Part shown: positions 24 through 4,321 of the stretch, piece by piece
Layout of the letters: every line of letters starts with the position of its first letter
How positions within the stretch are numbered: the first letter of the stretch is position 1
Assembly (NCBI GenBank): GCA_017454355.1
Contig: JAFTDD010000038.1
Coordinates: forward strand, 1-39,088
DNA: 39,088 nucleotides
Source of the DNA: Muribaculaceae bacterium
Lineage (GTDB): Bacteria > Bacteroidota > Bacteroidia > Bacteroidales > Muribaculaceae
Reading direction: 5' to 3'
The notes under the pieces: model-generated
The model's database searches: none
What the model was told of the DNA's origin: nothing
What the model saw: only the letters and a program-made list of their open reading frames with translations
Position numbers and translations under genes: made by a program

Positions 24-2761
24 GTTGTGAATTGCTTTCAAATTTGTATATTTGCAGGAGAATTGGCAACTTTTCGAATACCATCAAGCATAACTGTTAC
101 GTTGTGAATTGCTTTCAAATTTGTATCTTTGCAGGAGATTTGGCAACGAGCAGTTAGAGAAGAAGAAGGCTCAACTGGTTGTGAATTGCTTTCAAATTTG
201 TATCTTTGCAGGAGATTTGGCAACGACAAGGTGAACGCACAAAACGGAAAATGGGTTGTGAATTGCTTTCAAATTTGTATCTTTGCAGGAGATTTGGCAA
301 CTATCAAGTATAGTATTGCTAGCTGACTTATGTTGTGAATTGCTTTCAAATTTGTATCTTTGCAGGAGATTTGGCAACCTTACGGATAGCATCATGCATA
401 ACTGTAATGTTGTGAATTGCTTTCAAATTTGTATCTTTGCAGGAGATTTGGCAACATAATTTACAGCTGTTGAAGCATTTCCAATGTTGTGAATTGCTTT
501 CAAATTTGTATCTTTGCAGGAGATTTGGCAACAAAAGTATGCAGTGAAAATGTGGACGGCCGTTGTGAATTGCTTTCAAATTTGTATCTTTGCAGGAGAT
601 TTGGCAACTAATTAACGGTTATGAAAGAGAGAAACATGTTGTGAATTGCTTTCAAATTTGTATCTTTGCAGGAGATTTGGCAACCCTCATCATCTCATCA
701 CAGCTCTTTGGTGTTGTGAATTGCTTTCAAATTTGTATCTTTGCAGGAGATTTGGCAACTCTTTCAGTTCAGCGGTCATTTTCTCGGTAGTTGTGAATTG
801 CTTTCAAATTTGTATCTTTGCAGGAGATTTGGCAACGGAGTAGATGAAGATGAAAAAGCCTGGCGCGTTGTGAATTGCTTTCAAATTTGTATCTTTGCAG
901 GAGATTTGGCAACTTCGTAAGTCATTTATACTACTCGTTGTGTGTTGTGAATTGCTTTCAAATTTGTATCTTTGCAGGAGATTTGGCAACTTACGCCAAC
1001 AGCGTTTGCGCAACGTCATCGTTGTGAATTGCTTTCAAATTTGTATCTTTGCAGGAGATTTGGCAACCACAAGGAACACCGCGTTGAAAGCGGTCTAGTT
1101 GTGAATTGCTTTCAAATTTGTATCTTTGCAGGAGATTTGGCAACGCATGGTGAAAATGTACTTTGACGGCGAGTGTTGTGAATTGCTTTCAAATTTGTAT
1201 CTTTGCAGGAGATTTGGCAACGGCTTGAGCCGCTTTTTCTTTTTTTGCCATGTTGTGAATTGCTTTCAAATTTGTATCTTTGCAGGAGATTTGGCAACCA
1301 CCCAAAAATGAATGCACCGGCCACTAAAGTTGTGAATTGCTTTCAAATTTGTATCTTTGCAGGAGATTTGGCAACAGCCGTACTTCGAGAGCAAGCGACG
1401 TATCAGTTGTGAATTGCTTTCAAATTTGTATCTTTGCAGGAGATTTGGCAACTATGTTTTCGGATATCAATCTAGATATGCCGTTGTGAATTGCTTTCAA
1501 ATTTGTATCTTTGCAGGAGATTTGGCAACTGTATGGTGGTGGTAGTGGAAACACCCACAGTTGTGAATTGCTTTCAAATTTGTATCTTTGCAGGAGATTT
1601 GGCAACGGAGTTGACGCCGTTACGGCGCTAGTGCACGTTGTGAATTGCTTTCAAATTTGTATCTTTGCAGGAGATTTGGCAACTCGACACCACGCAGCAG
1701 CCGCCGCCGCGGCGTTGTGAATTGCTTTCAAATTTGTATCTTTGCAGGAGATTTGGCAACAACATCTAACGGCGTTATTTTGCAAAGCATGTTGTGAATT
1801 GCTTTCAAATTTGTATCTTTGCAGGAGATTTGGCAACGTTGCCCTCGAGGGGGCGTCAACCCTGGGGTTGTGAATTGCTTTCAAATTTGTATCTTTGCAG
1901 GAGATTTGGCAACCGTTGCCGGAGCCCCTCATCTGTTCTGCAAGTTGTGAATTGCTTTCAAATTTGTATCTTTGCAGGAGATTTGGCAACCTTACCGAGC
2001 GAAGACAACTCATCTTGTTTGTTGTGAATTGCTTTCAAATTTGTATCTTTGCAGGAGATTTGGCAACAGCGATTTGGCAAAGCTTGATGACACACTGGTT
2101 GTGAATTGCTTTCAAATTTGTATCTTTGCAGGAGATTTGGCAACAACGTGCGTGTGCGTGCGCAAGAGAAAGTTGGTTGTGAATTGCTTTCAAATTTGTA
2201 TCTTTGCAGGAGATTTGGCAACTGCGCCGGTATAGACCGGCTTGCCGTTATAGTTGTGAATTGCTTTCAAATTTGTATCTTTGCAGGAGATTTGGCAACG
2301 CCATTCAGCGTGAGAACGTGTCCGTTGCTGTTGTGAATTGCTTTCAAATTTGTATCTTTGCAGGAGATTTGGCAACGCCGCTCGTAGTGTTGAGCTTGCC
2401 GAACACGTTGTGAATTGCTTTCAAATTTGTATCTTTGCAGGAGATTTGGCAACGCACGACACCGTAGGGAAACTCTGCCGCCAGTTGTGAATTGCTTTCA
2501 AATTTGTATCTTTGCAGGAGATTTGGCAACCACCGCCCTGCACGAACAAGACATCAATCGGTTGTGAATTGCTTTCAAATTTGTATCTTTGCAGGAGATT
2601 TGGCAACGGAGAAGATGAAGATGAGAAGGCTTGCCGCGTTGTGAATTGCTTTCAAATTTGTATCTTTGCAGGAGATTTGGCAACTAATTTGAATTTTTAA
2701 CGCCTCTAATGGTAGTTGTGAATTGCTTTCAAATTTGTATCTTTGCAGGAGATTTGGCAAC
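24..2761 (+). CRISPR. CRISPR array, 47-bp repeats, 36 repeats and 35 spacers (type II-C style)
   Basis: Thirty-six repeats of 47 bp start at 24 and then about every 77 bp; the last spans 2715-2761. The repeat begins GTTGTGAATTGC and ends GGAGATTTGGCAAC. Most spacers are 30 bp; those at 533, 609 and 1838 are 29, the one at 685 is 28 and the one at 2145 is 31. All repeats I checked are identical except the first (24-70), which has two substitutions (repeat positions 27 and 39). Repeats of 47 bp with 30-bp spacers are typical of Bacteroidota type II-C (Cas9) loci; the type assignment is inference because no cas gene is in the window. Each repeat holds TTG at positions 2-4, a 19-nt gap and TATCTTTG at 24-31, a good Bacteroidota promoter directed rightward into the following spacer. 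I set the strand to + on that basis. Confidence 0.97.
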
Positions 2762-2866
2762 ACGATGTTGATAACTTATTGATAATTAATAAGTTGCAAG
2801 GTGCTGCCAGAAAATAAAAAATGCCAAATCTTTTAGTTGGTTCGTGAGGATAGAGCCAATTTTGTA
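2762..2866 (+). other. AT-rich flank of the CRISPR array
   Basis: No open frame is convincing here. The stretch has a small inverted repeat (AACTTATT at 2773-2780, AATAAGTT at 2788-2795) and a 10-base run, TGCCAAATCT at 2822-2831, complementary to the 3' part of the CRISPR repeat (AGATTTGGCA). It could be a leader, or the tail of a transcript started in the last repeat. I found no match to a tracrRNA anti-repeat, which should complement the 5' half of the repeat. Confidence 0.4.
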
Positions 2867-2899
2867 TAAAGGACGCGATGTCACACATCGCGTCCTTTA
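2867..2899. terminator. Perfect 15-bp hairpin between the array and the DUF58 gene
   Basis: TAAAGGACGCGATGT (2867-2881), a 3-nt loop CAC, and its exact complement (2885-2899). It lies about 105 bp after the last CRISPR repeat and 85 bp beyond the DUF58 stop codon, between converging transcripts, so it can serve both directions. The stem ends supply A and U runs, but no long separate U-tract follows on either side. Confidence 0.6.
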
Positions 2900-2983
2900 T
2901 GGTTATTAGTGACAGATGAAATGTATGTTAGAGGTTAAGTTTTGTTAAAATGTGTAATGGCAGCGCGATTCTATGGCGCGGGG

Positions 2984-4321
2984 TTAGAAGAGGTGTCGGG
3001 CCTTCATCTCGAGGTAGCGGTTGATGACGTTGATAGTGAGGCCGGAGGGCGATGTGAGCAGCGAGTGGATGCCGTTGCGGCGCAGTTCGGCTACTATGGC
3101 ACGTTTGAGGCCGAGTTGGCGCATCGCTATCACGCGGGTATAGTAGCCTCGCAGGTCGCGCGGACGCTCGGAAACGTAGTGCGCCGTTTCCACGTCATCA
3201 AAGAAGACAACCAGCAGACGATGACGCACGTTCATGCGGCGCAGGTAGGGGAGTTGTCGCCGCATACCGTCGAGCGAAGTGAAATTGGTGTAGAGCACGA
3301 GCAGGCTGCGGCGGCGTATCAGGCGGTCGATGTTGACGGCTAGCGCCGCAAAGTCGCTGTCGTCAAAATCGGTCTCCAAGTTGTAGAGAGCCTCGTTGAT
3401 AACCATCATGTGGGAGGCACGGCGCTCGGCCGGCACATATTCGCCAAAGTCGCCGGCAAATGTCACTATGCCGGCCTTGTCTTCCTTGTGTGTTGCCACG
3501 TAACTGAGCACAAGCGACGCGTTGATTGCGTAGTCGAGCAGTGTCATGCGATCCGAAGTATCGGAATCATCACATAGTTTGAAGGCCTGTTGCATCACGC
3601 GTCCTTTGTCGATGACGTTGAACACTTGCTGCGAACGCTCGTCCTGATAGACGTTGACCATGAGTTGGCCGCGGCGTGCGCTGGCTTTCCAGTTGATGGC
3701 GCGGTACTCATCGCCCTCCACATACTCCTTGATCTGCTCAAACTCGGTGTTATTGCCCACGTGGCGAATGCGCTTGATACCCAACTCGGTGAGGTTGTCG
3801 CTCATGGCGAGTAGTTCATATTTGTTGAGCATCAGATAGGACGGGTAGACAGCGACGTCCTGCTCGCTGCCGAGGGTGTAACGTCGCTGCACGAGGCCCA
3901 GTGCGGTTGCCGCAAAGACGCGGATGTGTCCGAAGCCGTACACGCCACGTTTGACGGGGCGCAGCCTGTAGATGATGTCGCATGCGCCGTGGGCCGCCAG
4001 GCGGTGGCCGAAGAGGACATCGCGCCGCTGGAAGATGTGTGGTATCTCGTCAATCACTTCGAGCCACACAGCAAAAGGGTAGTCGCTCGCCACAGAGAGT
4101 GTCACCTCGTTGTCGTCGCCGTTGCTGAAGCGCGAAGCCATCCGGCGCGAGGCGACGATGGCCCGGCGGTGGTACAGCAAAACCACGTCGAGCGCTACTG
4201 CCGCGACGAGCAACCACAGCGCGGCGATGCCCGCGGTGTAGCACCATGGCCACCATTCTCCGGCAACAAGGCCGAGCACAATGGCGGCTACAACGATATA
4301 GAAGCGTTTGGTGAGATACAA
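2984..4321 (-). CDS. DUF58 domain-containing membrane protein
   Basis: 445 residues. Two hydrophobic segments near the N terminus (about residues 8-45) anchor it in the inner membrane. The DUF58 signature follows in the middle of the protein: IKEYVEGDEYRAINWKASAR, with the usual acidic pair, NWKA and a trailing basic residue. The C-terminal third resembles the von Willebrand A-like fold common behind DUF58. It is the last gene of a minus-strand cluster with MoxR, DUF4350, DUF4129 and SpoIIM-family genes; MoxR-DUF58 pairs are known together and are thought to act in assembly or activation of membrane or envelope complexes, with no defined substrate. A 72-bp gap separates it from the MoxR gene. 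The family call is firm, the function unknown. Confidence 0.92.
   Translation of the reverse strand: MYLTKRFYIVVAAIVLGLVAGEWWPWCYTAGIAALWLLVAAVALDVVLLYHRRAIVASRRMASRFSNGDDNEVTLSVASDYPFAVWLEVIDEIPHIFQRRDVLFGHRLAAHGACDIIYRLRPVKRGVYGFGHIRVFAATALGLVQRRYTLGSEQDVAVYPSYLMLNKYELLAMSDNLTELGIKRIRHVGNNTEFEQIKEYVEGDEYRAINWKASARRGQLMVNVYQDERSQQVFNVIDKGRVMQQAFKLCDDSDTSDRMTLLDYAINASLVLSYVATHKEDKAGIVTFAGDFGEYVPAERRASHMMVINEALYNLETDFDDSDFAALAVNIDRLIRRRSLLVLYTNFTSLDGMRRQLPYLRRMNVRHRLLVVFFDDVETAHYVSERPRDLRGYYTRVIAMRQLGLKRAIVAELRRNGIHSLLTSPSGLTINVINRYLEMKARHLF

Follow-up and report, generated by a model that had tools for sequence, protein, structure and literature searches.

A candidate Bacteroidales housekeeping −7 box in every repeat of a type II-C-like CRISPR array from a Muribaculaceae bacterium

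The type II-C-like CRISPR array of a Muribaculaceae bacterium described here very probably carries, in every repeat, the −7 box of the Bacteroidales housekeeping promoter: transcription would start about 4–7 nt past the box, proceed towards the leader and stop at a hairpin, with no need for a promoter outside the array. Because the box lies inside each repeat, each stored virus fragment is probably readable alone. The argument draws on the motif itself, its conservation among relatives, its sliding relative to the repeat ends, its retention in most terminal repeats, the hairpins that follow such arrays and, in relatives, the convergence of the array with cas9. The window, that is, the whole stretch of 39,088 nt analyzed, is an entire contig, and the features of its array are collected in Table 1. 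Published work is cited by PMC number.

Table 1. Coordinates, in the window, of the array and the features that accompany it
Feature	Positions	Strand	Remarks
Type II-C-like CRISPR array	24..2761	+	36 repeats of 47 nt, 35 spacers of 28–31 nt
Degenerate repeat copy	24..70	+	position 27 C>A (free n of the box), position 39 T>A
Putative −33 element TTG, first intact repeat	102..104	+	repeat positions 2–4; equal offset in 36/36 copies; compatible only
Candidate −7 box TATCTTTG, first intact repeat	124..131	+	repeat positions 24–31; equal offset in 36/36 copies
Leader-side flank	2762..2864	+	stretch past the last repeat
17-pair hairpin	2865..2901	+	about 104 nt beyond the last repeat; tail weakly T-rich
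ORF convergent with the array	2984..4321	−	3′ of the hairpin

The repeat copies are identical in 35 of 36 cases, and the single degenerate one retains the box as TATATTTG at 47–54; the earlier note had correctly recorded its change at a free n position of the box and had missed the second change. The left end of the window falls within a further spacer, so the array extends leftward and this copy is not necessarily terminal. The label II-C was assigned from likeness to the 47-nt repeat and the anti-repeat published for Riemerella II-C (PMC5006608), and the array was oriented by means of relatives, whose anti-repeats span the 5′ part of the repeat, and of the published Riemerella anti-repeat, which is the reverse complement of positions 2–17 (PMC5006608). 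The downstream hairpin and the convergent ORF fit a reading towards the leader, and the hairpin is probably the transcription stop of the array; the last repeat and its flank (2715–2901) match those of one other member of the genus (G555) at 74%. There are no cas genes in the window, and Rfam at its gathering threshold returned no match there. Cas9 was not found in this genome by a family model that detects it in relatives, nor by a search with a same-genus protein, an emptiness that alone proves little. As the assembly comprises 102 contigs at 89% completeness, with the array at the end of one of them, the missing Cas9 is no proof of absence; this could be an orphan array, or the assembly may lack the cas operon. 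Three pairs of spacers are similar without being identical (1–23/914–943, 71–100/379–408 and 837–866/2608–2637), which suggests that related phage targets were sampled repeatedly.

As the earlier note stated, every repeat contains TTG (positions 2–4), a 19-nt gap and TAnnTTTG (24–31). The combined pattern occurs 36 times on the plus strand of 1–2761, once per repeat, and not at all on the minus strand; in the remaining ~36 kb of the window it is found zero times on the plus strand and once on the minus strand, and the spacers of the array contain no sense TAnnTTTG. When the repeat was shuffled 200,000 times, TAnnTTTG appeared in 5.75% of the shuffles, and together with TTG at a gap of 18–20 in 0.25%. 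Since the 36 copies amount to one observation and not 36, the comparison across different repeats is the real test. The σABfr promoter of Bacteroides consists of TTTG at −33 and TAnnTTTG at −7 (PMC7366714, PMC12632263). The −7 box of the repeat and its gap fit this promoter; position 1 of the repeat is G, however, and GTTG therefore stands where the −33 consensus has TTTG.

The promoters of the host itself were scanned in 20 stretches of the genome plus the window minus the array (314,258 bases, 128 upstream regions). Sense TAnnTTTG was found 44 times upstream of genes (1.84/kb), compared with 0.19/kb in coding sequence; antisense boxes numbered 29 (1.21/kb), hits that regions between divergent genes would yield. 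Among the 39 host boxes with enough upstream sequence, TTG precedes the box at a gap of 18 in four cases, 19 in seven and 20 in 12, 23 in total, with none at gaps of 15–17 or 21–22, and the base that follows the box is C at a frequency of 0.66 and T at 0.26. The repeat, with its gap of 19 and TATCTTTGCA, agrees with this pattern, and its TATCTTTGC has the form of the σABfr −7 box, TAnnTTTG(Y), like the host's own promoters.

For the comparison with relatives, arrays were gathered beside Cas9 matches without use of the repeat motif. A first set drew on 80 Cas9 regions fetched from 98 genomes above the model cut-off (34/34 from the family, 46/64 from a phylum sample), 63 of which gave arrays; with the window added to the fetched regions, it holds 70 array calls in 64 sources. 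A second, named set consists of the best 80 of 496 relatives matched by an alignment of Cas9 from such loci, picked by likeness of Cas9 and not by the motif, and yielded 58 array calls in 57 of the 80 loci, no array being found in the other 23. Five of the 128 calls were dropped as too short or of unrecognized family (L137, 22 nt; L151 and L255, 30 nt; L194; L240), of which L194 has the box and L240 lacks it. The 123 arrays kept, including those from the best 80 of 496, represent 115 distinct repeats, 87 of 44–50 nt and 28 of 36 nt. Taxonomic groups were assigned from record titles and kinship labels, titles such as ‘Bacteroidetes bacterium’ being classed as uncertain or other.

Exact TAnnTTTG, starting at positions 20–30, is present in 58 of the 87 long repeats, and at least five of its six fixed bases match in 79/87, where shuffled 3′ parts predict 0.89 and 12.5, an expectation that overstates the significance because the repeats are related by descent and the trials are not independent. 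The reverse strand carries the box in 0/87. All 58 repeats with the exact box are 46–48 nt long, and within them the box slides, starting at position 23 (five repeats), 24 (40), 25 (seven), 26 (four) or 27 (two). In the Bacteroidales, whose sample includes members of the best 80 of 496 named relatives, 52 of 56 distinct long repeats have the exact box, and 49 of these 52 have TTG at a gap of 18–20; four of the 56 lack the exact box, as does L240, which had been dropped before the count. The earlier note's description of the promoter as of Bacteroidota type proved too broad. The exact box belongs mainly to the Bacteroidales, and repeats from other orders mostly match at five of six positions: among the named non-Bacteroidales long repeats (from the best 80 of 496) the exact box occurs in 0/8 and at least five of six in 7/8, while it is exact in 2/9 from other orders of the same class and in 4/14 of uncertain or other origin.

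The 36-nt repeats are more varied. The exact box is found in six of the 28 distinct sequences and at least five of six positions match in 16 (expected, 0.30 and 3.9), with two members of the exact-box list, L208 and L241, probably being shortened consensus calls of 47-nt repeats. In nine arrays whose 36-nt repeats begin with GTTGTGGTTTGAT, cas9 lies 5′ of the array and shares its strand; none carries the exact box, four match at five of six, and six belong to the window's own family. Three of the nine (L133, L137 and L183) have degenerate repeats at the 3′ end. Another array, L167, has a repeat that starts like GTTGTGGTTTGAT, with cas9 3′ of the array and the exact box present. Six Bacteroidales 36-nt repeats, of the other subfamily, are without the box. 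Other classes of the phylum contribute 15 distinct 36-nt repeats: seven (L158, L159, L161, L162, L163, L166 and L189) end in TAnnnT flush with the spacer, and four carry TAnnTTTG.

The taxonomic distribution of the box in repeats was compared with that of the box upstream of genes in the array loci. TAnnTTTG is over-represented 5.7-fold there in the Bacteroidales (291 sense, 213 antisense), 2.1-fold in other Bacteroidia (75 sense vs. 84 antisense, without sense bias) and 2.3-fold in other classes (32 sense, 22 antisense), so that the exact repeat box is common in the group with the strongest upstream excess of TAnnTTTG, a correlation only. Host variants of the −7 box were considered as a cause of the five-of-six boxes outside the Bacteroidales and were rejected, as the TAnnTTAG of these repeats is not enriched upstream of genes there. 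We suggest, tentatively, that the II-C repeat promoter has been rewritten to fit the σ-factor of the host, as TAnnTTTG in the Bacteroidales and as an ordinary-looking TAnnnT flush with the repeat end in part of the 36-nt repeats from other classes; the presence of TAnnTTTG in 4/15 of the other-class 36-nt repeats, next to TAnnnT in 7/15, blurs this division. A TAnnnT flush with the spacer resembles the ordinary −10 box found in Neisseria repeats. A 62-copy array from a Fibrimonadaceae metagenome-assembled genome (L243, 19430–24045) has TAAATTTA instead of the box; its Cas9 is 51% identical to the query over the best segment, the record is titled outside the Bacteroidota, and contamination of the assembly is possible.

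When the 41 genomes of the genus were searched with the first 17 nt of the repeat alone, 11 gave a match. Ten of these, the window's included, have at least two copies, and all ten have the box, as does L120, which the Cas9 search had supplied. In this total of eleven, the nn of the box is TC, CC or AT, and the tails that follow it vary in sequence and length, the repeats being 36–48 nt long. The repeats of the window and of L120 are identical over positions 1–31 and then differ at 9/16 positions, while the leaders of the two show only a weak local match of 22 columns. Exceptions are one old copy in L326, which reads TATCTTAG, and the solitary copy in L334, the eleventh genome, which reads TATCTTTA. 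A same-genus array (L324, 8870–10622) has a 36-nt repeat that resembles the 47-nt type ended 4 nt past the box, which indicates that most of the tail is dispensable to the repeat. The tally of substitutions within arrays was set aside as evidence of selection on the box: point changes in repeat copies lie in the right direction and are not significantly rarer at its fixed positions (3/354 sites) than after it (19/930; p = 0.23). In a tail-filtered set of 14 47-mers, positions 28–30 are conserved and 32–35 are nearly without information. This divergence of the tails past a box that stays is hard to reconcile with the box being a relic of common descent in an array read from an outside promoter, an explanation that we consider highly improbable, even though repeats of one family do share ancestry.

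Where an outside promoter would lie also bears on that explanation. The accessible text of the Riemerella survey reports no promoter in the repeats and proposes one in the leader (PMC5006608). In our arrays, an excess of upstream promoters was not found: TAnnTTTG occurs 90–240 nt upstream in sense orientation in 4/38 and in antisense orientation in 10/38, and the leader side often has terminator-like hairpins. Such hairpins lie downstream of 28 of 57 Bacteroidales arrays, compared with 2/57 for shuffled sequences and 3/38 upstream, and 25 of the 28 start 48–78 nt beyond the last repeat; the opposite strand scores 22/57, so many of them may be bidirectional. Where Cas9 was located, cas9 lies 3′ of the array on the opposite strand in 97 of 111 arrays of relatives (including the best 80 of 496). 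Five of the 14 others (L208, L223, L239, L244 and L256) have cas9 on the 5′ side despite the box, and the link between the box and the side of cas9 is thus not absolute.

The leader-distal repeats are informative because type II-C arrays are read towards the leader: transcription meets the leader-distal repeat before any other, and the 5′ part of that repeat is in no useful crRNA. According to Feussner 2025 (PMC12080349), mutations of the extra first repeat of II-C arrays fall mostly within the initial 15 nt, and the authors suggest that first repeats must keep promoter function. A terminal copy outside the main array was taken as credible if its likelihood gain was 15 or more, and credible 5′ loss was seen in 40 of the 66 long arrays whose leader-distal end is visible. 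The loss ends before the box in 36/40 and extends into or past it in four (L181, L177, L206 and L224); in L177 both n are changed, yet TAnnTTTG is intact. This distribution departs from a uniform one at p = 3e-5 (over positions 1–38) or 8e-4 (1–34), and losses of at least 10 nt have their boundary before the box in 21/25 (p = 3e-4). In four further arrays with weaker gains (8–13), L235, L197, L142 and L259, the loss also passes the position of the box.

The two halves of the promoter proposed in the earlier note fare differently in these data. The match to the −7 half is upheld by the shuffles, the sliding, the variation at the n positions and the retention in terminal repeats, whereas that to the −33 half gained no independent support: its gap suits the promoters of this genome, and TTG as a −33 element is only compatible with the data. 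Possibly, the −7 box with an AT-rich upstream tract is the sole promoter element, and TTG (2–4) is fixed for tracrRNA pairing and as the end at which spacers are integrated. This would accord with anti-repeats that start at position 2–3 in many loci and with 36-nt repeats that lack the box and yet also open with GTTG or GCTG. Moreover, terminal repeats hold the box and drop TTG, and no regain of TTG upstream after 5′ loss was found, TTG standing at a gap of 17–23 in 6/30 terminal repeats without positions 1–4 or more (background, 0.14); the terminal repeats support the −7 box and not the −33 element. They may, however, simply be weak promoters, and the gap of 18–20 in 49/52 exact Bacteroidales repeats is where host promoters have TTG (23/39 boxes, none at 21–22), both of which argue against this alternative.

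The box could also serve a purpose other than transcription. In other CRISPR types, repeat interiors serve as integration anchors, and the TTTG block might likewise act in spacer integration, as an inner Cas1–Cas2 anchor, or in tracrRNA pairing, a role that appears improbable. The start of the box (24–27) does lie inside many anti-repeats, and six of the 28 anti-repeat matches that passed our filter run beyond position 27; the other 22 end by that position, so that TTTG (28–31) is mostly outside the pairing with tracrRNA. The box slides relative to both repeat ends, which is unexpected of an integration anchor, and terminal repeats, which are out of use for integration, mostly retain it. Nor would integration or pairing lead one to expect the exact box to be frequent in the group where TAnnTTTG shows its greatest excess upstream of host genes (5.7-fold in the Bacteroidales vs. 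2.1-fold in other Bacteroidia).

Under the promoter reading of the box, RNA polymerase would start about 4–7 nt past it, near repeat positions 35–38, and would read through the last 10–13 repeat nt, then the 30-nt spacer, then the following repeat, the 5′ part of which would pair with tracrRNA. If the box is centered at −7, as in the consensus (PMC7366714), the start would fall at about 35–36, leaving 12–13 nt of repeat in the 47-nt type and approximately none in the 36-nt type of L324. Transcripts would head for the leader end and stop at the hairpin about 50–100 nt past the last repeat; read-through to this hairpin is just as compatible with the data as one short transcript per spacer. An outside promoter would be unnecessary, and each new spacer would gain its own promoter via the duplicated repeat.

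Repeats of this kind also occur in viral sequences. The first 17 nt of the repeat matched 50 viral stretches, a second search pattern gave no match there and a third one contig, already in the set. A Riemerella phage, vB_RanS_CRP19 (L039, 2950–3215), contains what by eye is a mini-array: only the 3′ part of its first repeat is present, yet with TATCTTTG, and there are three full repeats, two of them followed by the same spacer, with a terminator-like hairpin directly after the last. Two further contigs, L058 and L061, resemble L039, and their leading altered repeat also has TAnnTTTG. Nine others (L054, L056, L059, L072, L074, L086, L087, L042 and L051) contain solitary II-C-like repeats or 5′ half-repeats, and the remainder are host-like arrays or chance matches in genes. 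Most of these directly follow an upstream ORF on the same strand, and those of L054 and L087, judged by eye, continue into a hairpin. They are similar to the RNA anti-CRISPRs reported as solitary repeat units (PMC10651486), in the accessible main text of which the word II-C does not occur.

If the repeat promoter has indeed been rewritten to fit the σ-factor of the host, array expression would be bound to the host lineage, which would restrict the transfer of II-C arrays between lineages. The Bacteroidales arrays are predicted to be silent under the ordinary σ-factor, a point relevant to moving Bacteroidales II-C arrays into other bacteria. Pre-crRNAs from 47-nt repeats would carry a tag of 10–13 nt that needs trimming, which is not expected where the box is flush with the spacer. 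The promoter reading of the box could also explain why the decay of terminal repeats halts at a certain point, and it gives a testable rule, that the box should be essential and the tail past it free. For a large group of gut bacteria it supplies a candidate −7 element of crRNA expression; there, the accessible texts of a survey of a relative report no repeat promoter (PMC5006608) and of two further papers name only TTG (PMC8092290, PMC10309648).

The II-C repeats of Neisseria and Campylobacter have an ordinary −10 box that sits flush with the repeat end. The box described here differs in its sequence, TAnnTTTG, and in its place: 16 nt separate it from the spacer in the window's 47-nt repeat, and transcripts should therefore open with 10–13 nt of repeat. 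What the systems share is a promoter motif in every repeat, known here from sequence (36/36); in Neisseria meningitidis and Campylobacter jejuni, the promoter in each repeat gives separate pre-crRNAs, and reading proceeds towards the newest spacer (PMC12080349, PMC13187072). Compared with Feussner 2025 (PMC12080349), the accessible main text of which contains no word beginning ‘bacteroid’ or ‘flavobacter’ and no TAnnTTTG, the boundary of terminal loss is here set just before a defined −7 box. TTG has also been named as the −33 element of a repeat-encoded promoter in the Flavobacterium II-C arrays: in Flavobacterium columnare, TTG 33 bp upstream of each spacer was proposed as the repeat promoter, with eight RNA reads on the array (PMC8092290), and the proposal was repeated for Flavobacterium psychrophilum, where TAnnTTTG is cited for cas9 (PMC10309648). 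In their accessible texts, neither paper names a −7 element in the repeats, and TAnnTTTG is absent from that on F. columnare (PMC8092290, PMC10309648). Earlier naming of TAnnTTTG in II-C repeats was not found in the accessible open-licence literature, which is weak evidence of absence. Promoters embedded in II-C repeats are thus already established, and for Flavobacterium they have, in the texts accessible, only been proposed, with TTG alone named; new here, as far as the literature searched shows, are the −7 element, its taxonomic range, its sliding within the repeat and its retention in terminal repeats.
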